Both the position numbers and the translations under genes were made by a program. A stretch of 64,000 nucleotides of DNA, from NCBI RefSeq assembly GCF_031453675.1, contig NZ_JAVIZX010000001.1, forward strand, positions 682,001-746,000, written 5' to 3'. This stretch comes from Paracidovorax wautersii (GTDB taxonomy: Bacteria > Pseudomonadota > Gammaproteobacteria > Burkholderiales > Burkholderiaceae_C). The notes beneath the pieces were generated by a model, which worked only from the letters and a program-made list of their open reading frames with translations, ran no database searches and was not told the origin of the DNA. Positions 10,797-29,816 of this stretch are shown here, one piece after another; position 1 is the first letter of the stretch, and the number at the start of each line of letters is the position of its first letter.

Positions 10797-11219
10797 TCAG
10801 CCGCCGCGGTTGCGCATCCAGTCTGCCGTACCCATGAAGCTCTCGGCCAGGCGCGTGCGCAGCGCCTCGGGCACGCCGGTCTCGCCCATGGCCTGGTCCA
10901 TGCACGCCACCCACTCGTCGCGCTCCTTGATGCCGATCGAGAACGGCAGGTGCCGCGCGCGCAGGCGCGGGTGGCCGAAGCGGCTCTGGTAGTGGTCCGG
11001 CCCGCCCAGCCAGCCGCACAGGAACCAGAAGAGCTTGTCGCGGGCCTCGTCCAGCGTGGAGCCGTGCGCGGCGCGCAGCGCGGCGTAGGCGGGCTCCAGG
11101 TCCATCAGGTCGTAGAAACGGTCCACCAGGGCGCGCACCCGGGGTTCGCCGCCGATCCATTCGAACGGCGTAGCGGCGGCGGGGCGGGCGGAAGAGGGGC
11201 TGTCGTCGTCAACGGGCAT
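10797..11219 (-). CDS. Group II truncated hemoglobin
   Basis: Small heme protein of the trHbO (group II) type, thought to bind O2 or NO. The 140-residue sequence contains the segment RFGHPRLRARHLPFSI, in which the second His (about H90) is the expected proximal heme ligand, and DEWVACM with the Trp (about W103) at the G8 position characteristic of group II. FYDLMD and FLCGWLGGP also fit. The N-terminus carries about 18 extra residues before the globin fold. It is followed, after one intergenic repeat copy, by nothing that suggests its partner. Confidence 0.92.
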   Translation of the reverse strand: MPVDDDSPSSARPAAATPFEWIGGEPRVRALVDRFYDLMDLEPAYAALRAAHGSTLDEARDKLFWFLCGWLGGPDHYQSRFGHPRLRARHLPFSIGIKERDEWVACMDQAMGETGVPEALRTRLAESFMGTADWMRNRGG

Positions 11220-11305: not shown

Positions 11306-12844
11306 TCAGCGGACCGGTGCCGCGTCCAGCCGGGCGGCCAGCGCATCCAGCACGGGCGCGATGGCAGGGCCTACGCGGATCTGCGGGTTGGAAAAGCCGT
11401 CGTCCTTGCCGGCGTCGATCTCGCGCTGGCGGATCAGCGGCACGGCGCGGGCGAAGGCCTGGGTGAACGAGTGCGTCTGGCGCAGCTGCTCGTCGAACAC
11501 CGCGCGGCCGAAGAAGGTCAGCTCCGACAGGCGGCCGCAGCCGTACGAGGTGTGCGTGGCGTCCGCCGCCGTCATCACCAGCGTGGCCTCGGTGGCCAGC
11601 GGCTCGATCCAGCCGCCTGAATAGCAGGCCGACACGGCGACCACCCGGTGGCGGATGCCGGCCTGGTCGAGCAGCCGGCGCAGCAGTTCGGGAGTGACGG
11701 GCTCCACCTCCAGCGGCCAGTGGTCGGCGGCCAGCCGGTGGTCCTGCCCGCCGTGCGAGGTGAGGTAGACCACCAGCACGTCGTGCGCGCGGTCCATGCG
11801 GGCGCCCAGGGCGGCCACGGCGCGCTCCAGGTTGCGCGGTGTGGCCCAGACGTGCGTGGCCGCGGTGTCGGCATGGTTGAGCAGCTGGAGCACGCGCCCG
11901 CGCGCGCCGAAACGCTCTTCCAGCAGCTCGCGCACCATCGTGCTTTCGCGGCGGAACACGTTCTCGCCGGCGAAGGGGGCGAACACCAGGCCGTACACAT
12001 CCACCACGCCATCGCGCTGCGGCACCAGGGCCTGCACCTGCCGCTCCCACAGCGCCTGCTGCGCCTCGAAGACCTCTTGCGACAGGCGCAGCGGCTCGGG
12101 CTCGAGCTCGGGGGCAGTGTCTGCATCGGGCTCGGCGTCGCCTTCGGCCCACACCGGGGCCTCCGGCGCTGCCTCGGTCCAGGACGGGCCGGGGTAGGTC
12201 CACAGTCCGGCGCCCGTCAGCACCACGGTCGCCAGCGTGAACAGGGCCAGTCGCGTGCGGGTGACGAAGAACGCCGCGCTCATGCGCAGCACAGCCACCA
12301 GGCCCAGCAGCACCAGGGCGAGCATGGCGCCGTCCAGCGCGCTCGGCCCCGGCCAGGCACCGGGATAGCGTACGGCCCACACCTGCAGCGCGCTCGACAG
12401 CAACAGCACTGGCAGCGGCGCCCACGAGGAGAGCGCGAACCAGGCCGCCAAGCGCCCGCCGCCACCGGCCGGCCCCGTGCCGCGCGGCAGGGCGCACCAG
12501 GCGCACCACAGCAAAGCCAGGCTGATCCACCAGGGCGCCAGCCAGGCGGCGGGCTCGAACTGCGCGGGCCCGGGCACGGTGAAGCGTTCGGCCGCCAACA
12601 GCGCCGCGGCCGGCAGCGCCACCAGCACCAGCAGCTGCCACGGGCCGGGGGCGGCATCGCCCGTGCGGGGGCGGAGGAAGGCTGCGCCCCGCAGGCCCTC
12701 CGCCATCCAGCGCCACAGCGGCAGCCGGCACGCGGGCTGCGGACCGGAAGATCCGGAAGGTGCGGGTGCAGTTGGCGGCACGGGCGGGGCCGGCGGCGTG
12801 CCGGCGTGGGCGGGGGGCAGGCCGGAGGCCGGGGAATCAGACAT
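11306..12844 (-). CDS. Membrane-anchored C13 (legumain-like) family peptidase
   Basis: A 512-residue protein with a Pro/Ala-rich N-terminus and several hydrophobic segments in its first half (for example [33 protein letters not shown] and LALFTLATVVLTGAGLWT). A soluble C-terminal domain of the C13 cysteine-peptidase clan carries the catalytic pair, His in VVYLTSHGGQDH (about H364) and Cys in VVAVSACYSGGWIE (about C407). C13 enzymes include legumain and GPI transamidase; bacterial members are poorly characterised. The peptidase domain probably faces the periplasm, which is inference. The start is taken at MSDSP; another ATG lies 12 bases upstream. Confidence 0.82.
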   Translation of the reverse strand: MSDSPASGLPPAHAGTPPAPPVPPTAPAPSGSSGPQPACRLPLWRWMAEGLRGAAFLRPRTGDAAPGPWQLLVLVALPAAALLAAERFTVPGPAQFEPAAWLAPWWISLALLWCAWCALPRGTGPAGGGGRLAAWFALSSWAPLPVLLLSSALQVWAVRYPGAWPGPSALDGAMLALVLLGLVAVLRMSAAFFVTRTRLALFTLATVVLTGAGLWTYPGPSWTEAAPEAPVWAEGDAEPDADTAPELEPEPLRLSQEVFEAQQALWERQVQALVPQRDGVVDVYGLVFAPFAGENVFRRESTMVRELLEERFGARGRVLQLLNHADTAATHVWATPRNLERAVAALGARMDRAHDVLVVYLTSHGGQDHRLAADHWPLEVEPVTPELLRRLLDQAGIRHRVVAVSACYSGGWIEPLATEATLVMTAADATHTSYGCGRLSELTFFGRAVFDEQLRQTHSFTQAFARAVPLIRQREIDAGKDDGFSNPQIRVGPAIAPVLDALAARLDAAPVR

Positions 12845-12918
12845 GGCGGGAATCATGCCACCGCCCGGGGCGTGCGCTGCCCCACGGCGCGGGAAGCAGC
12901 CACACCGGCGATCAGCAT

Positions 12919-13026: not shown

Positions 13027-15546
13027 TCAGTCGGCCGCGCGCCGCAGCGTGTCCACCACCGGGCGGCGCAGCACCTCGCGCAGGCCCCACCAGCCCGCAG
13101 CCAGGGCCAGCACGGCGCCGGCCAGCGCACCGGCCAGCGGCACCCAGGGCGTGGCCGTCCAGGCGAAGTCGAACACGTAGCGCGCCAGCGCCCAGCCCAC
13201 GGCCACCGCGACGAAGCTCGCCAGGAAGCCGGCCAGCAGGCCCACGCCGGCCAGCTCCGCGCGCTGCACTTGGCGCAGCAGCCGCGCCTGGGCGCCCACG
13301 GCGCGCATGATGGCGAACTCGCGCGCCCGCTCCTCGCGCGTGGCCGTCACCGCGGCGAACAGCACCACCAGCCCGGCGGCCAGCGTGAAGCCGAAGAGGA
13401 ACTCCACCGCGCGGATCACCTGGCCCAGCACGCCCTGCACCTGGGCCAGCGTGGCGCTCATGTCCACGTTGGTGATGTTGGGGAATTCGCGCACCAGGGC
13501 GTTGTCGAAGCCAGGAGTGCTGGGCGCACGGTAGGCCGCCAGATACGTCGCAGGCAAGTCGGCCAGCTGGTCCACCGTGTACATGACGAAGAAGTTGGCG
13601 CGCAGCGAGCCCCAGTCCACCTTGCGCAGGCTGGTGATGCGCGCCTCGCTCGGAATGCCGCCGATGTCGAAGCGCAGCGTGTCGCCGAGCTTCAGGCCCA
13701 GCGTCTCGGCGATGCCCTCCTCCACGCTGACTTCGCCCGCGGCGCCGGGCGTCCAGGTGCCCGCCGTGATCTGGTTGTGCCCGGGCGCCTGCGCGGCGTT
13801 GGAGAGGTTGAACTCGCGGTCCACCAGGCGCTTGGCGCGGTCCTCGGTGTAGTCGTCCATGCCCACGTCGCGCCCGTTGATGGCCACCAGCCGGCCGCGG
13901 ATCATGGGGTACCAGTCGTAGCGCGACACGCCGGCGCCGCGCAGCGTCTGCTGGAAGGCGTCGGCCTGCTCGGGCATCACGTTGATGACGAAGCGGTTGG
14001 GCGCGTCGGGCGGCGTGGCCTTCTGCCAGCTGCCGATGAGGTCGGTGCGCAGCAGCACCAGCAGCACCAGGGCCAGCAGGCCCACGGCCAGGCTGCTCAC
14101 CTGCACCACCGCATACACCGGCCGGGCGGAGATCTGCCGCGTGGCCAACACCAGCCAGCGCGGGGCCGTGGCCTCGTTCACGCTCCGGCGCAGCAGCTTC
14201 ACGGCCAGCCAGGCCAGGCCGGCGAACAGCAGTACCGCGCCGGCGAAGCCGCCCACGGCGATCAGGCCCAGCTTCAGGTCGCTGCTCACCGCCAGCAGCA
14301 GCGCGGCGAAGCCCGCCACCCCCACGCCCAGCACCAGCGCGGAGGCCGGCTTGAGGCCGCCCAGGTCGCGCCGGATCACGCGCAGCGGCGGCACCTGGGC
14401 CAGCTGCAGGACCGGCGGCAGGCCGAAGGCGAACATCAGCGTGAGCCCCATGCCCAGGCCGAAGGCCACGGGCCACGGACCGGGCGCGGGCAGCGCCGTT
14501 TCCACCAGCCCCGCCAGCAGCGCCACGAAGGCGAAGTGCACGGCAAAGCCCAGCAGCACGCCCAGCGCGCTGGCGAACAGGCCCACCAGGCCGAACTCCA
14601 CGACGTACCCGCCCGCGATGGTGCGCTGGCTCTGCCCCAGCACGCGCAGCAGGGCCGCGCCGTCCAGGTGCTGGCTGGCGAAGCCACGCGCCGCCAGCGC
14701 CACGGCCACGGCGGACAGCAGGGCCGCCAGCAGCGCCACCAGGTTGAGGAATTTCTGCGCCCGGTCCAGCGTCTGGCGCATCTCGGGCCGGCCGGTGTCC
14801 AGCGACTCCAGCCGCACGCCGTGCACCTCGGGGCGCTTGAGGGTCTCGGCGGCCCAGTCGCTGAACTGCTGCACCGCCCGGGTCTCGCCCGCCACGGCGA
14901 AGCGGTAGGTCAGGCGGCTGGCGGGCTGCACCAGGCCGGTGGCCGGCAGGTCGGCCGCGTTCACCATGACGCGCGGCGCAAAGCTCATGAACCCGGCGCC
15001 GCGGTCGGGCTCCAGGGTGATGATGCGGGCGATGCGCAGCTGCGCGTCCCCCAGCAGCAGCGGGTCGCCCATCGCCAGGCCCAGCGCCTCCAGCAGGGGC
15101 GCGTCCACCCACGCCTCGCCGCGCGCCGGGATCTCGTCCGTGGCTTGGCCGGCCGCGCCCGGCGCCGGGGCCACCTGCAGGCGGCCCCGCAGCGGGTAGC
15201 CGGCCTCCACGCTCTTGAGGGCCACCAGCCGGCTGGCCCCGCCCTGCGCATCGTCCGCCCGGCCCATGGTGGGAAAGCCCAGCGTGGTCACGCTGCGCAG
15301 GCCCAGGGCGCGGGCGCGCTCGGTGAATGCAGCCGGGGTCGGGTTGTCGCTCACCACCACGGCATCGCCGCCCAGCAGCTGCAGCGCATCGCGCTCCAGC
15401 CCGCGCTGCAGGCGGTCGGCGAAGAAGCCCACCGAAGTGAGCGCCGCCACCGCCAGCGTGACGGCGACGATCAGCAGGCGCAGTTCGCCCGCGCGCAGGT
15501 CGCGCCACAGGGTCCGCCAGCCCAGGGACAGGACGTGTTTCAGCAT
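13027..15546 (-). CDS. FtsX/MacB-type ABC transporter permease (YbbP-like)
   Basis: An 839-residue inner-membrane permease with two FtsX modules. It starts MLKHVLSLGWRTLWRDLRAG with a first helix (LLIVAVTLAVAALTSVGFFA), a large periplasmic region, a middle helix set around residue 255-480 and a final set near the C-terminus (LFGFTLAAGLVVLFAAVTA; GVGLLAGFLASFVAVAVGWA). This plan matches YbbP-type permeases, which normally work with a YbbA-type ATPase, often with the TesA esterase. No ATPase gene is adjacent in this window, so its partner must be elsewhere. Substrate unknown; lipoprotein or lipid handling is the family guess. Confidence 0.85.
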   Translation of the reverse strand: MLKHVLSLGWRTLWRDLRAGELRLLIVAVTLAVAALTSVGFFADRLQRGLERDALQLLGGDAVVVSDNPTPAAFTERARALGLRSVTTLGFPTMGRADDAQGGASRLVALKSVEAGYPLRGRLQVAPAPGAAGQATDEIPARGEAWVDAPLLEALGLAMGDPLLLGDAQLRIARIITLEPDRGAGFMSFAPRVMVNAADLPATGLVQPASRLTYRFAVAGETRAVQQFSDWAAETLKRPEVHGVRLESLDTGRPEMRQTLDRAQKFLNLVALLAALLSAVAVALAARGFASQHLDGAALLRVLGQSQRTIAGGYVVEFGLVGLFASALGVLLGFAVHFAFVALLAGLVETALPAPGPWPVAFGLGMGLTLMFAFGLPPVLQLAQVPPLRVIRRDLGGLKPASALVLGVGVAGFAALLLAVSSDLKLGLIAVGGFAGAVLLFAGLAWLAVKLLRRSVNEATAPRWLVLATRQISARPVYAVVQVSSLAVGLLALVLLVLLRTDLIGSWQKATPPDAPNRFVINVMPEQADAFQQTLRGAGVSRYDWYPMIRGRLVAINGRDVGMDDYTEDRAKRLVDREFNLSNAAQAPGHNQITAGTWTPGAAGEVSVEEGIAETLGLKLGDTLRFDIGGIPSEARITSLRKVDWGSLRANFFVMYTVDQLADLPATYLAAYRAPSTPGFDNALVREFPNITNVDMSATLAQVQGVLGQVIRAVEFLFGFTLAAGLVVLFAAVTATREERAREFAIMRAVGAQARLLRQVQRAELAGVGLLAGFLASFVAVAVGWALARYVFDFAWTATPWVPLAGALAGAVLALAAGWWGLREVLRRPVVDTLRRAAD

Positions 15547-15654
15547 GGTGGATGCACTCCTCGCGGCAACATCGAAAGCAACTTGGGGTCGATCAAAGAA
15601 AAGAGGCAGCAACGGGAACGGCGCACACGGGCGTGGCCGCCGCTTCCGGCCCGC

Positions 15655-16536
15655 TCAGACATAGCGCACGGCGGCAGGCGGGCGGCACATGCCCCACAGC
15701 TGCATGCCGGCCTCGCGGGCCAGCTGCAGCGCCAGCCCCGTGGGCGCGGAGATGGTGGCCAGCGCCGGCACGCCCAGGCGCGCGCATTTGCGCACCAGCT
15801 CGTAGCTGGTGCGGCTGGTCATGACGACGAAGCCCGGTTCCTCCAGCCGGCCGGCCAGCGCCAGGCGTCCGAGCAGTTTGTCGAGGGCGTTGTGGCGGCC
15901 CACGTCTTCGAGCACGTCGGTGAGCTGCCCGTCGGGCGTCGCCCAGCCGGCGGCATGCAGGGAGCCTGCCTGGGCATTGAGCACCTGCAGCGGCCCCAGT
16001 GCGGTGAACGCGCGGGCCAGCGTCTCCACATCCAGCCCGGCCACCCAGGGCGGCACCGGCACCGTCTCGGGATGCAGGTCCAGCGCCTGCAGGCTGTCGA
16101 TGCCGCAGACGCCGCAGCCCGTGCGGCCCGCCAGGGCGCGCCGGTGCTCCTTGAGCCGGGCGAACTGGCGCGGCGCGATCTCCATGTGCACCGAGCAGCT
16201 CACGTCGGGCGTGCCTTCGCCATGGGTGAAGACTTCCAGGTCGCGGCAGTCCGCCGGGTCGACGACGATGCCTTCGCTGAGGGCGAAGCCCACGGCGAAA
16301 GCCTCCAGATCCTGCGGCGTGGCCATCATGACGGCATGCGAGATGTCGTTGAACACCAGCGCCACCGGCACCTCGGCGGCCACCGTGCGCTGCTGCGGCG
16401 CCGACGTGGCAGCGCCCGGCGCATCCTGCGGCGGCAGGCGCCAGGCCGCCACGGGCACCTCCCGCAGGGGCGCCGGCGTGCCATCGGCACCGGATGTGAC
16501 GGGGGCCGCACACGCGGCTGAGGACGACTCTTGCAT
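15655..16536 (-). CDS. fdhD: Formate dehydrogenase accessory sulfurtransferase FdhD
   Basis: Delivers sulfur to the molybdenum/bis-MGD cofactor of formate dehydrogenase. The 293-residue protein (start MQESSSAACAAPV; another ATG 12 bases upstream) has the catalytic cysteine motif GRTGCGVCGIDSL and the family motifs VALVFNDISHAVMMATPQD, FAVGFALSEGIV, EDVGRHNALDKLLG and SRTSYELVRKCA. It is transcribed away from the formate dehydrogenase operon that begins at 16889, and the roughly 350-base divergent region should hold promoters for both. FdhD is needed for the enzyme encoded next door, so the placement is functional. Confidence 0.96.
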   Translation of the reverse strand: MQESSSAACAAPVTSGADGTPAPLREVPVAAWRLPPQDAPGAATSAPQQRTVAAEVPVALVFNDISHAVMMATPQDLEAFAVGFALSEGIVVDPADCRDLEVFTHGEGTPDVSCSVHMEIAPRQFARLKEHRRALAGRTGCGVCGIDSLQALDLHPETVPVPPWVAGLDVETLARAFTALGPLQVLNAQAGSLHAAGWATPDGQLTDVLEDVGRHNALDKLLGRLALAGRLEEPGFVVMTSRTSYELVRKCARLGVPALATISAPTGLALQLAREAGMQLWGMCRPPAAVRYV

Positions 16537-16591
16537 GGCCCGTACCATAACAGCCCGCCCCTGTCATGACGCAGCGCACACCTCGGGTTTG

Positions 16592-16620: not shown

Positions 16621-16888
16621 TGGCCGCGTCGTACAGGAGCCACGATGTCGCGCGCATCCAGCCACTCGCATCCCGGCAGCTTCCCGCTGTTGCGGACACC
16701 GCCTTGCCGGCCGGCCGCCCCCGCTTCCCATCGTTTCGCTTCTTCGTCTTCGAACCTGTTTCGGGCCAGCATCGCGCGTGCGCGTCGGTCTCGTGTGACA
16801 GGCGTTGCCCGCTTGCGGGCCATGCTCGGTTGCCACCTGGAATCCACCCGATGAAACACCCCCTCTCCCCGGGGCAGGAGGACATGTC

Positions 16889-19800
16889 ATGGACATGAAC
16901 CGCCGCCACTTCTTCCGCGTCAGCGGCGCCGGCCTGGTCGGCTCCAGTCTCGTCGCGATGGGCTTCTCGCCCGCCACGGCCCTGGCCGACGTGCGCCAGT
17001 ACAAGCTGGCGCAGACCACGGTCACGCGCCAGACCTGCACCTACTGCTCGGTCGGCTGCGGCATCCTCATGTACTCGCTGGGCGACGGCGCCAAGAACGC
17101 CAAGCTGTCGGTCATGCACGTCGAGGGCGATCCGGACCATCCGGTGAACCGCGGCACGCTGTGCCCTAAGGGCGCCAGCCTGCTGGACATCGTGCACAGC
17201 CCCAACCGCCTGCTGTACCCCGAGTACCGCGCGCCGGGCTCCAACGAGTGGAAGCGCATGTCCTGGGACGATGCGCTCACCCGCATCGCCAAGCACCTGA
17301 AGGACGACCGCGACGCCCACTTCGTCGAGAAGGCGGAAGACGGCACGACGGTCAACCGCTGGCTCACCACCGGCATGCTGGCCGCCTCGGCCGCCAGCAG
17401 CGAAGCCGGATACATCACCCACAAAGTGGCCCGCTCCTGGGGCCTGCTGGCATTCGACAACCAAGCCCGTGTTTGACACGGCCCGACGGTGGCAGGTCTT
17501 GCCCCGACGTTTGGCCGTGGAGCGATGACGAACCATTGGGTCGACATCAAGAACGCGGATGTGATTTTGGTCATGGGCGGCAATGCCGCCGAGGCGCACC
17601 CGTGCGGCTTCAAGTGGGTGACCGAGGCGAAGGCGCACAACAAGGCGTACTTCATGGTGGTGGACCCGCGCTTCAACCGCTCGGCATCGGTGGCGGATTT
17701 CTACGCCCCCATCCGGTCGGGCAGCGACATCGCCTTCCTGGGCGGGGTGATCAACTACCTGCTCTCGAACGACAAGATCCACCACGAGTACGTGAAGAAC
17801 TACACGGACTTCTCGTTCATCGTGCGCAGCGACTTCGACTTCGTCGACGGCATCTTCTCGGGCTACAACCAGGAAAAGCGCACCTACGAGAAGGCCAGCT
17901 GGGACTATGAGCTGGGGGCCGACGGGTTCGTCAAGACCGACCCCACGCTGCAGGACCCGCGCTGCGTGTACCAGCTGATGAAGAAGCACTACGCGCGCTA
18001 CACGCCCGAGAAGGTGGAGAGCGTCTGCGGAACGCCTAGGGCCAAGTTCCTGCACATCTGCGAGAAGATGGCATCGACGGCCGTGCCCGGCCGCGCCATG
18101 ACCATCCTGTACGCGCTGGGCTGGACGCAGCACTCCATCGGCGCGCAGATCCTGCGCACCGGCGCCATGGTGCAGCTGCTGCTGGGCAATATCGGCGTGG
18201 CGGGCGGCGGCATGAATGCGCTGCGCGGCCACTCCAACATCCAGGGCCTGACGGACCTGGGCCTGCTGTCTTCGAGCCTGCCCGGCTACCTGACCCTGCC
18301 CTCCCAGGTGGAGCAGGACTACGGCAAGTACATCGAGGCCCGCACCCAGAAGCCGATGCGCGCCGGCCAGATGAGCTACTGGCAGAACTACTCCAAGTTC
18401 CACGTGAGCCTGATGAAGGCCTGGTGGGGCCCTGCTGCCACGGCCGAGAACAACTGGGCCTACGACTACCTGCCCAAGCTCGACAAGCAGTACGACATGC
18501 TGCAGATCTTCGAGATGATGAACGAGGGCAAGGTCAACGGCTACCTGGCGCAGGGCTTCAACCCGCTGGCGGCGCTGTCCAACAAGGATCGCGTGCGCAG
18601 CGGCCTCGCCAAGCTCAAGTTCCTGGTCATCATGGACCCGCTGGCCACGGAGACCTCGGAGTTCTGGAAGAACCACGGCGAGTACAACGACGTGGACGCC
18701 TCCCAGATCCAGACCGAGGTGTTCCGCCTGCCCACGACCTGCTTCGCCGAGGAAGAAGGCTCGGTGGTCAGCTCCTCGCGCGTGCTGCAGTGGCACTGGA
18801 AGGCTGCCGAGCCCCCCGGCGAGGCGCACACCGACATCCACATCATGTCGGAGCTGCACATGCGCCTGAAGGCGCTCTACCAGAAGGACGGCGGCAAGTT
18901 CCCCGACCCCATCGTCAACCTCTGGTGGCCCTACGCCCAGCCGCACGAACCCACGGCCGCGGAAGTGGCCAAGGAATACAACGGCCGCGCGCTGGTGGAC
19001 CTGGTCGACCCCAAAGACCCGACCAAGGTGCTGCGCAAGGCCGGCGAGCAGGTTTCCGGTTTCGGCGAGCTGCGCGACGACGGCACCACGATCAGCGGCT
19101 GCTGGATCTACGCGGGCGCGTGGACGCAGGCCGGCAACCAGATGGGCCGGCGCGACAACTCCGACCCGACCGGCATCGGCAACACGCTGAACTGGGCCTG
19201 GGCCTGGCCGGCCAACCGCCGCATTCTGTACAACCGTGCGTCGTGCGATCCGAGCGGCAAGCCGTTCAACCCGAAGCGCAAGGTGGTCAGCTGGAACGGC
19301 AGCGCCTGGGGCGGGGCCGACGTGCCCGACTTCGGCGCCAACCTGGCGCCCGAAACCGGTGCCGGCCCGTTCATCATGAACCCCGAGGGCGTGGCCCGTT
19401 TCTTCGCCCGTAAGGGTCTGAACGAAGGCCCGTTCCCCGAGCACTACGAGCCGTTCGACACGCCGCTGGGCTACAACCCCATGCACCCGAACAACAAGCA
19501 GGCCACCAGCAGTCCGGCGGCCCGCGTGTTCCCGGCCATCTGGGATACGTTCGGCGCAGCCAAGGACTTCCCGCACGTCGGCACCACGTACCGGCTGACC
19601 GAGCACTTCCATTACTGGACCAAGCACGCGCTGCTGAACGCCATCACCCAGCCCGAGCAGTTCGTCGAGATCGGCGAGGCGCTGGCGCAGGAAGTGGGCG
19701 TGAAGTCGGGCGAGCGGGTGAAGGTGAGCTCCAAGCGCGGCTACATCAAGGCCGTGGCCATGGTCACCAAGCGCATCAAGCCGATGCAGATCGAAGGCAA

Positions 19801-19954
19801 GACGGTGCATCACGTCGGCATTCCGATCCACTGGGGATTCAAGGGTCTGACCAAGCCGGGCTTCCTGGCCAACACGCTGACGCCTTTCGTGGGCGACGGC
19901 AACACCAACACCCCTGAGTTCAAGACCTTCCTGGTCAAGGTGGAAAAGGTCTGA
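16889..19954 (+). CDS. fdnG: Formate dehydrogenase alpha subunit, selenocysteine-containing (FdnG/FdoG type)
   Basis: Catalytic subunit of a respiratory, periplasm-facing formate dehydrogenase (formate to CO2) with Mo/W-bis-MGD and one [4Fe-4S] cluster. The protein is 1021 residues if the in-frame TGA at 17474-17476 is read as selenocysteine (residue 196, as in E. coli FdnG). It has a twin-arginine signal ([15 protein letters not shown]), a cluster motif [14 protein letters not shown] with a later TLCPKG, and [21 protein letters not shown] around the active site. The frame stays open on both sides of the TGA and both halves match the family. An AGGAGG at 16876-16881 supports the start. A standard gene caller would split it in two. 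It is followed by the beta and gamma subunit genes. Confidence 0.95.
17474..17520 (+). promoter_or_regulatory. SECIS element for UGA selenocysteine decoding
   Basis: Directly after the TGA, CACGGCC (17477-17483) pairs with GGCCGTG (17513-17519). Above an internal loop, GG pairs with CC around a bulged T (17490), and GGCA (17491-17494) pairs with TGCC (17500-17503) under the loop GGTCT. The bulged U and the GGUC-type apical loop are the features SelB recognises in the E. coli fdhF SECIS. SelB is encoded at 24162. Confidence 0.9.
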
Positions 19955-19964
19955 GGAGCCGCCC

Positions 19965-20915
19965 ATGTCATCACTGCAATCACTCGACATCAAGCGCCGC
20001 TCCGCCACCACCACGCCGTCGCCCAGCATCCGCGAGGCGCACGGCGGGGGCGAGGTCGCCAAGCTCATCGACGTCTCCAAGTGCATCGGCTGCAAGGCCT
20101 GCCAGACGGCGTGCATGGAGTGGAACGACCTGCGCGACAACGTGGGCACGGCCGCGGCCGGCGTCTACGACAACCCCACCGACCTCACCGAGCACTCGTG
20201 GACCGTGATGCGGTTCACCGAGTACGAGAACGAGGCCACGGGCAACCTGGAATGGCTGATCCGCAAGGACGGCTGCATGCACTGCGAGGACCCGGGCTGC
20301 CTGAAGGCCTGCCCCTCGCCCGGAGCCATCGTGCAGTACGCCAACGGCATCGTGGACTTCCAGGAAGAGCATTGCGTGGGCTGCGGCTACTGCGTGACGG
20401 GCTGCCCGTTCAACGTGCCGCGCATCTCCAAGAAGGACCACAAGGCCTACAAGTGCACGCTGTGCTCCGACCGCGTGGCGGTGGGCCAGGAGCCCGCCTG
20501 CGTGAAGACCTGCCCCACCGGCGCCATCATGTTCGGCACCAAGAAGGCGATGAAGGACCAGGCCGCCGAGCGCATCGAGGACCTGAAGGAACGCGGCTTC
20601 GAGAAGGCCGGCCTCTACGACCCGGCCGGCGTAGGCGGCACGCACGTCATGTACGTGCTGCACCACGGCGACCAGCCGTCGCTGTACCACGGCCTGCCCA
20701 ACGAGCCGAAGATCAGCCCGATGGTCAGCCTGTGGAAGGGCGTCTCCAAGCCGCTGGCCATGGCGGCGCTGGGCGTGGCCGCCGTGGGCAGCCTGTTCCA
20801 CTACATCACCAAGGGCCCCAACGACGTCTCCAAGGACCTGGAAGACGAGATGGAGCGCAAGGATGAGGAAGCCGAGGCGCGGGCCCGCGCTGCCACCCAG
20901 GAGGACCGGCCATGA
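19965..20915 (+). CDS. fdnH: Formate dehydrogenase iron-sulfur (beta) subunit
   Basis: Electron-transfer subunit that carries electrons from the alpha subunit to the membrane cytochrome. The 316-residue protein has four [4Fe-4S] binding groups: [45 protein letters not shown] and [22 protein letters not shown] single C-terminal membrane anchor ([18 protein letters not shown]) is followed by an acidic tail. It starts 10 bases after the alpha subunit, with a GAGGAG ribosome site, and overlaps the gamma gene by 4 bases (ATGA). Usual family length. Confidence 0.96.
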
Positions 20916-21538
20916 GACGCAACCCCCGCGACCTGCAGCGCTACACGGCCTCCGAACGCGCCAACCACTGGATCGTAGGCATCTGCTTCATCCTGCTGGC
21001 GCTGTCGGGCCTGGCGTTCTTCCACCCGGCCTTCTTCCCGCTGACCGCCCTGTTCGGCGGCGGGCCGTGGACGCGCATCCTGCACCCGTACATCGGCGTG
21101 GTGATGGCGCTGTTCTTCATCCTGATGGCGCTGCGCTTCTGGCGGCTGAACGTGATCGAGCGGCGCGACATCGAGTGGCTGAAGAACGTCGACAAGATGG
21201 TGGACGGCAACGACCACCACATGCCCGAGCAGGGCAAATACAACGGCGGCCAGAAGGTGCTGTTCTGGGGCCTGGTGGTCGGCATGGCCGTCATCCTGGT
21301 CACGGGCGTGCTGATGTGGCGGGCCTGGTGGGCGCCGCCCATCACGGTGATCCGCGTGGCCTCGGTGCTGCATGCCGTGGCGGCGGTGTGGATGATCGGC
21401 CTGATCATCCTGCACGTGTACGCCGCCATCTGGACGCGCGGCACCATCCGCGCCATGCTCTACGGCACCGTGACCCGCGCCTGGGCCAAGCAGCACCACC
21501 GCGGCTGGTACCGCAAGGTCACTGGAGATGACAGTTAA
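20912..21538 (+). CDS. fdnI: Formate dehydrogenase cytochrome b556 (gamma) subunit
   Basis: Di-heme membrane subunit that passes electrons to quinone. The 208-residue protein has four hydrophobic segments ([67 protein letters not shown]). Candidate heme ligands are His in ERANHWIVG, in LHPYIGVV, in SVLHAVAAV and in LHVYAAI. It is translationally coupled to the beta gene through ATGA. A 116-base gap with a strong hairpin separates it from fdhE. Confidence 0.94.
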
Positions 21539-21654: not shown

Positions 21655-22629
21655 GTGCAAACACGCATTCTTCAACCGGGTGAAATCGAGACGCTGGACC
21701 GCACCAGCCCCATCCGCGTGCGCCTGCCGCAGCCAGCCAGCCTGTTCGCCGACCGCGCCGCGCGGCTGCTGCAGCGGGCCGAGGGCAATCCCATCGGCGA
21801 CTACCTGCGCTTCGTGGCGCAGCTGGTGAAGGCCCAGCAGCAGGCCGCGGCCGCGGTGCAGACCGCCCCGCCCGACGCCGCCGCCATCGCCCAGGCGCAG
21901 GAACACTCCATGCCCCTGCTGCCGGCCGCCAGCCATGTCGACCCGGCCTGGCACGGCGTGCTCGACGGCATCCTGGCCGCGGTGCGCGAGAGCCCTGCCG
22001 TGCCCGAGGCGCTGGCCCCGGTGCTCGCCACGCTGCAGGCCCAGTCCGCCGCCGAGCGCGACACGCTGGCGCGCCGCGTGCTGGTGGGCCTGGTCAGCGA
22101 GCCCGAGGAACTGGCCGCCGCGCCGCTGGTCATGGCCGCGCTGCAGGTGGTGTTCGCCGACCGCGCCAGCCGCCTGAGCCTGGCCGACATTCCCTACACC
22201 GACCCGGCCACCGTCTGCCCCGTGTGCGGCACAGCGCCCGTGGCCAGCGTGCTGCGCATCGGCGGGCGCGAGGCCGGCCTGCGCTACCTGCACTGCGGCA
22301 CCTGCTGCACCGAATGGCACATGGTGCGCGTGAAGTGCACGCACTGCGAGTCCACCAAGGGCGTGCGCTACCAGGGCCTGCAGAGCGAAGGCAGCGACCA
22401 GAAGGACGAAGTGGTGCTGGCCGAGACCTGCGACGCCTGCCACACCTACCGCAAGATCGCCAACCAGGAGAAGGACCCGCACGCCGAGCCCCTGGCCGAC
22501 GACCTGGCCACGCTGCTGCTCGATCTGCTGATGGGCGAGACCGACTTCGCCCGCGCCAGCACCAACCCTTTCCTGCCCCTGGCCGACGTGGACGCCACGC
22601 CGCCGGCCGCGGACGGCACTGCGGCATGA
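21655..22629 (+). CDS. fdhE: Formate dehydrogenase accessory protein FdhE
   Basis: Maturation factor for respiratory formate dehydrogenases; it binds iron through conserved cysteines and interacts with the catalytic subunit. The 324-residue protein has the four expected Cys pairs: [38 protein letters not shown] and [10 protein letters not shown]. The start is GTG at 21655, preceded by GGAG at 21642-21645; no better ATG exists. It overlaps selA by 4 bases (ATGA), so translation is coupled and the accessory and selenium genes form one operon. Confidence 0.95.
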
Positions 22630-24059
22630 GCGCCGCCGCGCCGGCCCAGCCGCTGCGCCTTCCCGCCGTGGACCGGGTGCTGTCGGCGCCTGCATTCCGC
22701 GCCCTGGCCGTCGACTACGGCACCCGCCTGACCACCGACACCCTGCGCGGCGTGATGGATGCCCTGCGGCCCGCCGTGGTGGCGGGCCAGGCCACGGCAG
22801 AGCAGATCGAACCCGCGGCGCTGGCCGCCCAGGTGCGCGCACAGCTCGACGCCCGTTTCGCCCCGCGCCTGAAGGCCGTGTTCAACCTCACCGGCACGGT
22901 GCTGCACACCAACCTGGGCCGCGCGCTGCTGCCCGACGCGGCCGTGCAGGCCGTGGTGCAGGCGCTGACCACGCCGGCCAATCTTGAATTCGACCTGGCC
23001 ACCGGCGGCCGCGGCGACCGCGACGACCTGGTGAACGACCTGCTGCGCGAGCTGACGGGCGCCGAGGCCGCTACGGTGGTCAACAACAACGCCGCGGCCG
23101 TGCTGCTCACGCTGAACGCACTGGCCGCGCGCAAGGAAGTGATCGTCTCGCGCGGCGAGCTGGTTGAGATCGGCGGCGCCTTCCGCATCCCGGACATCAT
23201 GGCCCGTGCCGGCGCCAAGCTGGTCGAGGTGGGCACCACCAACCGCACGCACGCCAAGGACTATGCCGAGGCCATCACCGAGCGCACCGCCCTGGTGATG
23301 AAGGTGCATTGCAGCAACTACGCGGTGACCGGCTTCACCAAGAGCGTGGGCGAGGCCGAGGTGGCACAGATCGCCCACGCGCGCGGCGTGCCGCTGGTGG
23401 TCGATCTGGGCAGCGGCACCCTGGTGGACCTGTCGCAATGGGGCCTGCCGCATGAGGCCACCGTGCGCGAGACCATCGCGGCCGGTGCCGACCTGGTCAC
23501 CTTCAGCGGCGACAAGCTGCTGGGCGGCCCGCAGGCCGGGCTCATCGTGGGCCGCAAGGACCTGATCGCCAAGATCAAGAAGAACCCGCTCAAGCGCGCG
23601 CTGCGCGTGGGCAAGCTCACGCTGGCCGCGCTGGAGCCGGTGCTGCGCCTGTACCTGCGGCCCGAGCAACTGCCCGAGCAGCTGACCACGCTGCGCCTCT
23701 TCACCCGCCCGCAGGCCGACATGCGCGCCCAGGCCGATGCGCTGACCGCCCCGCTGCAGGCCGCCGTGGGCACGGGCTACACCGTGCATGCCGATGCCGT
23801 GTTCAGCCAGATCGGCAGCGGCGCCCTGCCCGTGGAGACGCTGCCCAGCTACGGCCTGGCGATCCGCCCGGTGAATGTCAAGCGCGCCGGCCGCGCACTG
23901 GGCCACCTCGAAGCCGCCCTGCGCGCCCTGCCCCGCCCCGTGATCGGCCACATCGCCAACGACACCCTGTGGCTGGACCTGCGCTGCCTGGAGGCGCGCG
24001 ACGTGCCGGCCTTCACCGCCCAGCTGCCGCTGCTGGCCGAGGCGCTGGCGCAGGAATGA
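22626..24059 (+). CDS. selA: L-seryl-tRNA(Sec) selenium transferase
   Basis: PLP enzyme that converts seryl-tRNA(Sec) to selenocysteinyl-tRNA(Sec) using selenophosphate. The 477-residue protein starts [19 protein letters not shown]. It shows [63 protein letters not shown] and the PLP-lysine motif [14 protein letters not shown] (K297). Usual family length. The ATG overlaps the fdhE stop. It is followed by a repeat copy and selB. Confidence 0.97.
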
Positions 24060-24161: not shown

Positions 24162-26174
24162 ATGATCATCGGCACCGCCGGCCATATCGACCACGGCAAG
24201 ACCTCGCTGGTGCGCGCGCTCACCGGCGTGGAGACCGACCGCCTGCCCGAGGAAAAGCGCCGCGGCATCTCCATCGAGCTGGGCTACGCCTACCTGCATG
24301 TGCCCAGCAGCGAGGCCCCGGACGCCAGCGGCCCCCACCACCGCGCGGCCCTGTCGCTGGGCTTCGTGGACGTGCCCGGACACGAGCGCCTGCTGCACAC
24401 CATGCTGGCGGGCGCCACCGGCATCGCCCACGCCTTGCTGGTGGTGGCCGCCGACGACGGCGTGATGCCGCAGACCCGCGAGCATCTGGCCGTGGTCGCG
24501 CTGCTCGGCGTGGCCCAGGGCACCGTCGCCATCACCAAGATCGACCGGCTGGACGCCAACACCCGCGCCGACCGGCTGCGCGCCGTACGCGCCGAAGTGG
24601 CGGCGCTGCTGGCGCCGACGCGGCTGGCGGGCGCGCCCGTGTTCCACGTCTCCGCCACCACCGGCGAAGGCATCGGCCCGCTGCGCGACCACCTGCTGGA
24701 GGTGGCCGCCCGCATGGACTCGGCACCCGCCGTGGGTGGCGCCGGCTCCACCACCGACGCCCCGCCCGCCTTCCGCCTGGCCGTGGACCGCGCCTTCACC
24801 CTGGCCGGCGTGGGCACCGTCGTCACCGGCACGGTCGCCAGCGGCAGCGCCCGCGTGGGCGACGAGCTGCAGATCGCCCCCGGTGGCCGCAGCGTGCGGC
24901 TGCGCGGCATCCACGCGCAGAACCAGCCGGCCGAGGTGGCCGCCGCCGGCCAGCGCTGCGCCCTGGCGCTGCACGGCGTGGCCAAGGACGAGGTGGGCCG
25001 CGGCGACTGGGTCTGCGCACCCGCCATCGGCCTGGCCACCACCCGCATCGACGTGGAATGCACGCTCTGGCCGGACGAGCCCAAGGCCCTGCGCTCCGGC
25101 ACGCCCGTGCACGTGCACCTCGCTACCTCCGACGTAATGGGCAGCATCGCCCTGCTGCAGGGCGACACCCTGGCGCCCGGCGCCACGGCGCTGGCCCAGC
25201 TGGTGCTGCACGGCACCGTGGCCGCCTGGCACGGCGACCGCGGCGTGCTGCGTGATGCCTCGGCCACGCGCACGCTGGGCGGCATCCGCGTGCTCGACCC
25301 GCACGCGCCGCAGCGCTGGCGCCGCACCCCCGAGCGGCTGGCCCTGCTGGCCGCCCAGGCGCTGCCCGCTCGCGCAGACCGCATCGCCGCCCTGCTGGCC
25401 CAGGCCCCGCTGGGCCTGGACCTGGCCGCCACCGCCCGCGCCGAGGGCCTGGCCCGGCCGGACGACCTGCCCCTGCCGCCCGGCGCCGTGCCCATCGTCG
25501 GTGCCGGTGCCGGTGCCGGCCTCGTCGCCATCGCCCCGGCCGCGCTGGCCGCCCTGCAGGCGCAGGCCGTGGAGAAGCTGCGCGCCTTCCACGCCAGCAC
25601 GCCGGAAGAGATCGGCCCCGACACCCGCCGCATCAAGCGCCTGGCCGCCCCGCGCGCCAGCGACGCGCTGTGGCAGCACGCCATCGACAGCCTGGTGGCG
25701 CAGGGCGCCATCGCGCGCAGCCACCACTGGCTGCATTTGCCGGACCACGCGGCCCGCATGAACGCGGCGGAAGAGCAGCTCGCGCAGCGCCTGATGCCCG
25801 CCCTGGCCGAAGGCGCGTTCGACCCGCCCTGGGTGCGCACCCTCGCCAAGGATCTGAACGTGGCTGAGGCCGTGGTGCGCCAGACCCTGGCCAGCATGGC
25901 GCGCCGGGGCATGGTCTTCCAGGTGGTGAAAGACCTGTACTATCCCGTCACCACGGTCGAGCAGCTGGCCGCCATCGCCCGCCGATGCATCGCGCAGGAG
26001 GGCAGCGGCACCGAACAGGGCCTGCAGGCCGCCAGCTTCCGCGACGCCACCGGCCTGGGCCGCAAACGCGCCATCCAGCTGCTGGAGTTCTTCGACCGCG
26101 TGGGCTTCACCCGCCGCGTGAAGGACGCGCACCTGCTGCGCCCCGGCACGCCGCTGTTCGGCGACCGCGGCTGA
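24162..26174 (+). CDS. selB: Selenocysteine-specific translation elongation factor SelB
   Basis: GTPase that brings Sec-tRNA to UGA codons marked by a SECIS hairpin. The 670-residue protein has the G1 motif [16 protein letters not shown] at residues 5-20 and the EF-Tu-like [13 protein letters not shown] (G2), [14 protein letters not shown] (G3) and ITKIDRL (G4). It then has two beta-barrel domains and the C-terminal winged-helix repeats that bind SECIS RNA (ending [22 protein letters not shown]). Length fits bacterial SelB. Its own target is the TGA of the formate dehydrogenase gene about 6.7 kb upstream. Confidence 0.97.
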
Positions 26175-26256
26175 TGCGGTGCGCGGTGGGTTGAGCGTTG
26201 GATGGATCGATTGATTAGATGAAGAGATGCTTTCGGCTGCAACGGCCGGAAGCCAT

Positions 26257-26351
26257 GGAAGGGAAGCGCTCCCGGTGGGGCGCCCGGGCTTCAAACCCGG
26301 TGGACTGCGCCACGCGTGGTCGGTGGGTTCGACTCCCTCTCCCTTCCGCCC
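26257..26351 (+). tRNA. selC: tRNA-Sec (anticodon TCA)
   Basis: An 8-bp acceptor stem, GGAAGGGA (26257-26264) with TCCCTTCC, is longer than normal as expected for tRNA-Sec. The anticodon stem CCGGG/CCCGG encloses the loop CTTCAAA with TCA at 26291-26293. A long variable arm (about 26301-26320) and the T-loop GGTTCGACTCC follow. The discriminator is G at 26348; CCA is not exactly encoded (CCC follows), so it is presumably added. It closely resembles E. coli selC and lies between selB and selD. Confidence 0.95.
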
Positions 26352-26372: not shown

Positions 26373-27191
26373 ATGACTCTAGATCCTTGGTCGGCAAATC
26401 CCGTTTGGCAAAATTTTTCCTCACTTGTTCGGGAAGCACATTCAGCCGAAGTTGCCCCCACAACAATGGAGCGCTCTCATCACCTGACGGCGGCCCTTTA
26501 CTTTGGGATAGCAACCCTTGAAGCCTTCCTGAACCGTGTCATGCGAGCACATCTTGCTGCATCTAAAAGCGAACACGTGATTCTTGAAGTTCTACGTAAA
26601 GGACGATTCCTCGCCAAGCTGGATAAGTGGCCTCTAGAAATCATCGGAATCCGCCCTGCATTCCCTCAGCAGCAGAGAGATTTAATTGGACTATGCAACG
26701 ATGTCCGGGGGAATCTAACGCACCCTAAAACGCTTGGTTATGACATTTATAAGCAGCTGCTCACAGTTCGCCCCGACGAGCTTGTTGATGCCGTAGCGAC
26801 CTATATCGTTACGTTTCACGCAGCACAGCGAACACGTTTTCCTTATTGGATTTTTGGCTGGAACTACCTTAATCCCAGTCCCAGAACGCATGAGATATTT
26901 CTCATACATGATCAACAATTTAGTTTCTCACTACGCGCCTTAGGCTTTGATGTCCCTGCTTCCGACGCCATTCGCTCTGAAGCGTGGAGAGATCTGTACC
27001 TTAAGTCGTTGGAGGGCTACATAGCAATCAAGAATGCGCTTGACAAAACGTCGGGCTGTGAGCCAAAGGCTATTCCGTTCCCGCATCAGCCAACACTATG
27101 TCGTCGCTGGTGGATGGCAGAACATCACAGAAGCTGCGGCCATGTAAGTAAAGAATCGATTGCAGCTGCAAAGCGACTGGACAATATGTAA
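26373..27191 (+). CDS. Uncharacterised protein with HEPN-like signature, low GC
   Basis: A 272-residue protein I do not recognise as a named family. Residues about 33-60 (MERSHHLTAALYFGIATLEA and FLNRVMRAH) look like the first helices of a HEPN domain, and CNDVRGNLTHP has an R-x4-H motif (R112, H117), the catalytic signature of HEPN RNases. The C-terminus is Cys/His/Trp-rich (CRRWWMAEHHRSCGH). Base composition is close to even, far below its neighbours, with many A/T-ending codons, suggesting recent acquisition. It starts 22 bases after the selenocysteine tRNA, a typical integration spot, but no flanking direct repeat was found. Existence as a gene is likely; the HEPN assignment is inference. 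Confidence 0.7.
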   Translation: MTLDPWSANPVWQNFSSLVREAHSAEVAPTTMERSHHLTAALYFGIATLEAFLNRVMRAHLAASKSEHVILEVLRKGRFLAKLDKWPLEIIGIRPAFPQQQRDLIGLCNDVRGNLTHPKTLGYDIYKQLLTVRPDELVDAVATYIVTFHAAQRTRFPYWIFGWNYLNPSPRTHEIFLIHDQQFSFSLRALGFDVPASDAIRSEAWRDLYLKSLEGYIAIKNALDKTSGCEPKAIPFPHQPTLCRRWWMAEHHRSCGHVSKESIAAAKRLDNM

Positions 27192-27225: not shown

Positions 27226-28317
27226 TTATGGCTTACTCGCGAGCAGATGTGCGGGCCCCGCCTCCACTCGCCCCACTACCGCAGCCTCCCCAAACCCTTC
27301 CCGCTCAAACACTCCGAGCACGTCTCCCACTGACTCAGGCGCACACGCCACCAACAGCCCGCCCGATGTCTGCGGATCGGTGATCAAGCTCTGCGTTACC
27401 GCCGGTAGCCCTTCCGCCAGCACCACGTCCTTGCCATAGCCCGCCCAGTTGCGCCCGCTGGCGCCGGTGATGAAACCCGCCTCCGCCAGCTCCAACACCC
27501 CCGGCAGCAGCGGCACCCGGCTCCAATCGATATGCACCGTCACGCCCGCGCCGCGGGCCATTTCCAGGCCGTGGCCGGCCAGGCCGAAGCCCGTCACGTC
27601 GGTGATGGCGTGTACGCCGGGCAGTGCGGCCAGCAGCGGGCCAGGGGTGTTCAGGCGCGTCGTGCTGGCGATCATGGCGCGGTAGTGGGCGTCGCTCAGC
27701 TGCTCTTTCTTGAGTGCGGCGCTGTACACCCCCACGCCCAGCGGTTTGCCCAGCACCAGCACGTCGCCGGGCTGTGCGCCGGCGTTGCGGCGCACGCGGT
27801 CGGGGTGCACCAGGCCCATGGCGACCAGGCCGTAGATGGGTTCCACCGAGTCGATGGTGTGGCCGCCCGCGATGGGAATGCCCGCCGCGCGGCACACATC
27901 CTGCCCGCCCCGCACGATGGCGCCGATCACGTCCAGCGGTAGCTGGTTCACCGGCATGGCGACCAGGGCCAGCGCCATGATGGGTTGGCCGCCCATGGCG
28001 TACACATCGCTGAGCGCGTTGGTGGCGGCGATGCGGCCGAACTCGTACGGGTCATCCACGATGGGCATGAAGAAGTCGGTGGTGGCCACCAGCGCCTGCG
28101 TGTCGTTCAGGCGGTAGACGGCGGCGTCGTCGGCGGTTTCGATGCCGACCATCAGCTCGGGCGGCACGAAGCTTGCGGCGCCGCTGGACTTCAATATCTC
28201 CGACAGCACGCCCGGCGCGATCTTGCAGCCGCAGCCGCCGCCGTGCGACAGCGAGGTGAGGCGGGGGCCACCCGTCGGGGAAGAGGCTTGCGTCGGTGCG
28301 GCAGCGGCAGCGTTCAT
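27226..28317 (-). CDS. selD: Selenide, water dikinase (selenophosphate synthetase)
   Basis: Makes selenophosphate, the selenium donor for SelA, from selenide and ATP. The 363-residue protein has the N-terminal active-site loop SHGGGCGCKIAPG (Cys29 and Lys32, equivalent to C17 and K20 of E. coli). It is a Cys form, so it does not itself need selenocysteine. Further motifs are ETADDAAVYRLND, ATTDFFMPIVDDPYEFGRIA, NALSDVYAMGG and AGGHTIDSVEPIYG. It is transcribed toward selB/selC, with the low-GC gene between. It shares a divergent region with the Tat-signal gene at 28535. Confidence 0.97.
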   Translation of the reverse strand: MNAAAAAPTQASSPTGGPRLTSLSHGGGCGCKIAPGVLSEILKSSGAASFVPPELMVGIETADDAAVYRLNDTQALVATTDFFMPIVDDPYEFGRIAATNALSDVYAMGGQPIMALALVAMPVNQLPLDVIGAIVRGGQDVCRAAGIPIAGGHTIDSVEPIYGLVAMGLVHPDRVRRNAGAQPGDVLVLGKPLGVGVYSAALKKEQLSDAHYRAMIASTTRLNTPGPLLAALPGVHAITDVTGFGLAGHGLEMARGAGVTVHIDWSRVPLLPGVLELAEAGFITGASGRNWAGYGKDVVLAEGLPAVTQSLITDPQTSGGLLVACAPESVGDVLGVFEREGFGEAAVVGRVEAGPAHLLASKP

Positions 28318-29656: not shown

Positions 29657-29750
29657 TCCCCCTGAGGCGCTGCGCGCCTTCCCCCTCTCTCTTCGCGCTA
29701 CGCGCTGCGGGAGGGGGACGCAGCCACCGCGGCGGGGCGGCCCTTGCGGG
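29657..29750 (+). repeat. GC-rich 3'-end element, copy 1
   Basis: Begins 4 bases after the transglutaminase-like stop: CCCCCTGAGGCGCTGCGCGC, then a C/T run, GAGGGGGACGCAGCC and GGGGCGGCCCTTGC. It contains nested stems (GGCGC/GCGCC and CCCCCTC/GAGGGGG). An inverted copy lies at 46805-46904, again starting right after a stop codon. The position suggests a terminator or mRNA 3'-end element that has spread. Confidence 0.7.
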
Positions 29751-29816
29751 GCTGCCCGCGCCTGGGCCGCACCCGCTTCAAACGATGCGCACAGTGCTTT
29801 GCGCCCTAGAAGTCCG

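Follow-up and report, generated by a model that had tools for sequence, protein, structure and literature searches.

The closest described counterpart of the locus reported here is formate dehydrogenase-N of E. coli (FdnGHI; PDB 1kqf), which is encoded by a three-subunit fdnG-fdnH-fdnI operon and whose alpha subunit carries selenocysteine (Sec) at residue 196, with a SECIS element of the SECIS_3 type. The Paracidovorax wautersii locus is like it in operon structure, along the whole length of the alpha subunit, in the position of Sec and in the type of SECIS. In known SelB proteins the SECIS RNA is bound by the C-terminal winged-helix part. The selA-selB-selC genes adjoin the gene for the only selenoprotein in Alpha-, Beta- and some Gammaproteobacteria (Zhang et al. 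2006, PMC1794560), and the Sec trait has been both lost and transferred (Romero et al. 2005, PMC1273633). Within the 64,000-nucleotide stretch of DNA that we analysed (the window), fdnG is almost certainly a selenoprotein gene in which the UGA at 17474 is decoded as Sec196 by the SECIS, SelB, selC, SelA and SelD, to give a periplasm-facing formate dehydrogenase-N that delivers electrons to quinone. We found no evidence against a Sec formate dehydrogenase.

The fdnG frame (16889-19954, forward strand) contains only two in-frame stops, the TGA at 17474-17476 and the terminal TGA at 19952-19954, and reading through the internal one gives a product of 1021 residues. A likely ribosome-binding site, AGGAGG, can be read directly at 16876-16881 (+), 7 bases upstream of the ATG at 16889. 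Third-position GC is 0.933 before the TGA and 0.935 after it, so the two halves are coding in one frame. A plain list of open reading frames splits the gene into 16805-17476 and 17489-19954. The sequence-only reading, which had taken the frame to be open across the TGA and had warned that an automatic caller would report two broken genes, was thus right on both counts, the second as regards the plain list; modern annotation pipelines often cope with the Sec formate dehydrogenase family.

That reading had also assigned both halves to the FdnG family and placed the TGA at residue 196, as in E. coli FdnG, and had suggested an alignment with FdnG proteins; the searches and the alignment agree with it. 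Against TIGR01553, the model for formate dehydrogenase-N alpha, the read-through protein reaches 1468.5 bits over residues 3-1020, where the cut-off is 814.2, and it matches E. coli FdnG (1kqf_A) end to end, with residues 1-1020 aligned at 1551 bits. Position 196 falls opposite the residue printed X in 1kqf_A, which puts Sec in the position of the molybdenum ligand, with histidine as the next residue (U196 H197). A formate dehydrogenase-N operon should also encode a beta and a gamma subunit, and the genes for both are present above cut-off: fdnH (19965-20915, +), the iron-sulfur beta subunit gene (TIGR01582, 463.7 bits), and fdnI (20912-21538, +), which encodes the cytochrome b gamma subunit (TIGR01583, 191.6 bits). 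The N-terminus of FdnG is probably a twin-arginine export signal, like that of E. coli FdnG.

A SECIS hairpin with a bulged U and a GGUC-type loop had been proposed to follow the TGA directly, and both a covariance model and a fold recover it. Rfam SECIS_3 (RF01989; gathering score of 63 used as the cut-off) matches 17471-17529 (+) over all 59 positions with a score of 84.4 bits and an E-value of 1.3e-18 for the window. Folding the bases 3' of the TGA, as had been suggested, gives a free energy of -26.7 kcal/mol, where shuffled sequences average -19.2 (z -2.6); the bulged U lies at 17490 and the apical GGUCU loop at 17495-17499. About 90 loci from close relatives supplied 30 distinct SECIS sequences for comparison; the loop G26-U27-C28-U29, the bulged U20 and the stem base G18-G19/C34-C35 are invariant in all of them, and 94.6% of cells pair under the Rfam structure, compared with 51.7% at most for slid pairings. 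Changes on both sides occur in four pairs, three of them from a single sequence (L093), and this covariation is supportive only, because the bases of the hairpin also encode a conserved stretch of protein.

FdnG homologues of at least 68% identity are present in 10 of 61 genomes (this one and nine others), each interrupted by exactly one TGA. Over all the loci fetched, the aligned codon is TGA in 93 matches and cysteine in 14 distant paralogues, whose identity around the site is about 50% at most. The 93 include the window itself, several times over as overlapping copies, and L013, a distant homologue that has TGA. A Cys or a disrupted frame at this position in related strains had been named as the observation that would speak against a selenoprotein; among the loci fetched there was no close FdnG homologue of either kind, and every close one had the TGA in frame. 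The distribution of Sec and Cys codons across these homologues is that expected of a selenocysteine site. The order fdnG-fdnH-fdnI-fdhE-selA-selB-selC is kept in most of the gene-bearing loci with sufficient flanks (27 loci inspected). The distant homologue L013 (G041:C15; TGA at 847) is a formate dehydrogenase homologue of about 38-41% identity with a TGA at the Sec position; the other homologues seen at that distance have Cys.

The cluster runs fdhD (-), fdnG-fdnH-fdnI-fdhE-selA-selB-selC (+), selD (-), and each of its protein genes scores above its curated cut-off. The divergent fdhD (15655-16548) encodes the sulfurtransferase for formate dehydrogenase maturation (TIGR00129, 169.6 bits; cut-off 140.9) and fdhE (21655-22629) a formate dehydrogenase accessory protein (TIGR01562, 257.6 bits). 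They are accompanied by selA (22626-24059, with a predicted ATG start at 22626) for L-seryl-tRNA(Sec) selenium transferase (TIGR00474, 599.4 bits; PF03841), by selB (24162-26174) for the Sec-specific elongation factor, whose C-terminal part carries SelB winged-helix domains (TIGR00475, 447 bits; PF09106, PF09107, PF21214, PF25461), by selC (26256-26350), a tRNA-Sec with anticodon UCA (ARAGORN; RF01852, 73.5 bits, cut-off 47), and by selD (27226-28317) for selenophosphate synthetase (NF002098, 527.5 bits; TIGR00476, 434.4 bits). Thus selA, selB, selC and selD all lie within the window, and these neighbours, which the sequence-only reading did not mention, are the strongest support for Sec at the TGA. 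SECIS_3 occurs once in this genome, in fdnG; neither a second gene of the SECIS_3 type nor a SelW-type (Rdx) gene, a possible further selenoprotein, was found there, so on these searches the genome may have no selenoprotein other than FdnG. The other formate-dehydrogenase-like frames of the genome have no internal stops.

These components would work together as the established biochemistry of the family predicts. SelD would supply the selenophosphate with which SelA forms Sec-tRNA(Sec) on the selC tRNA. SelB would bind the hairpin just 3' of the UGA at 17474 through its winged-helix end and bring the charged tRNA to the ribosome, where the UGA would be read as selenocysteine 196, a putative molybdenum ligand. 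The product would be the catalytic subunit of a Tat-exported, membrane-bound formate dehydrogenase-N facing the periplasm, and quinone would receive the electrons of formate by way of FdnH and FdnI.

Between selC and selD there is an AT-rich ORF (26376-27191, 271 amino acids) with a GC content of about 50% in surroundings of about 72%; it has no match in Pfam, in PADLOC or among plasmids, and none in 100 related genomes. It has the look of foreign DNA inserted recently downstream of a tRNA gene. The 3' end of selC, whose duplication would point to site-specific integration, is not repeated in the window at lengths of 12 bases or more. At about 29657-29782 there is an intergenic sequence of ~125 bases with dozens of copies in this and related genomes at roughly 75-91% identity, and it is a member of a dispersed intergenic repeat family. 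A gene for a peptidase C13 (caspase-like) domain protein (11309-12856, -) adjoins a truncated-globin gene (10797-11219).

The module is patchily distributed: of 251 genomes in the family, 59 score above the cut-off for SECIS_3. All 16 congeners tested lack fdnG, and none has a tRNA-Sec over the Rfam cut-off; they gave only weak cross-matches below it, and as such matches also arise in control genomes we take tRNA-Sec to be absent from the congeners. The cluster occupies a slot beside an FtsX-type permease gene (window 13027-15612), and this gene also borders the Sec module in two other genera (L147, L148). In four congeners (L143, L144, L145, L146) what comes after the FtsX-type gene is fdhD with an oxidoreductase that is only distantly related, and there is no selC; in the two examined closely, the oxidoreductase is a YdeP-like protein of the FdhF family (L143) or a Cys-type FDH3 accompanied by its beta subunit (L146). 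Both loss with replacement and an exchange of modules fit the contents of the slot in the congeners. We suggest, tentatively, that Sec-type modules with full decoding machinery, Cys-type FDH3 modules and YdeP-like modules might swap at this slot within the genus, UGA-Sec decoding coming and going as a cassette at a fixed locus. The absence from congeners, together with the conserved flanks in other genera, makes this a small but clean case in which to study how Sec decoding is gained and lost.

Were the TGA a real stop, produced by a nonsense mutation or a sequencing error, fdnG would be a pseudogene, as its division in the plain ORF list might imply; but the identical TGA is found without exception in close homologues from many genera, SECIS_3 is intact and the 1021 codons contain no other lesion. 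The conservation of TGA and SECIS refutes this explanation, which we consider vanishingly improbable. The UGA might instead be read as another amino acid by a suppressor tRNA (Trp or Cys, for example) or be passed by low-level, unspecific read-through. Cys is indeed a functional alternative in distant paralogues, and we found nothing else in favour of such decoding. The only tRNA gene in the window is that for tRNA-Sec, close to selA, selB and selD, and since UGA also terminates fdnG it is not generally recoded; we give this possibility next to no credence.

An operon that is intact in sequence might also be silent or non-functional in this strain, as a recent acquisition or a relic, and its absence from the 16 congeners and the AT-rich ORF between selC and selD count in favour of this. 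Against it, the reading frames and selC are all intact and the codon-position bias of GC-rich coding genes is maintained throughout, and we regard a silent operon as very unlikely. A selenoprotein decoded at the UGA by the adjoining sel genes is the reading that we adopt.

The main import of this finding is for annotation: fdnG should be called as one selenoprotein gene. The locus differs from that of E. coli in having fdhE, selA, selB and selC directly downstream of the structural genes, with fdhD and selD flanking the cluster; in E. coli the same accessory and decoding genes are dispersed. It has the clustered genes of the selA-selB-selC operon with fdhA that has been described in Alpha-, Beta- and Gammaproteobacteria/Pseudomonadales (PMC1794560), again with a formate dehydrogenase as the neighbouring selenoprotein, and it shows no material difference from that arrangement apart from the additional AT-rich ORF between selC and selD. 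Because the locus fits the published arrangement in every respect tested, the finding is confirmed and ordinary: fdnG is a textbook selenoprotein gene in an operon arrangement already known in kind, and the locus is a further example of the self-contained Sec module that has been described.
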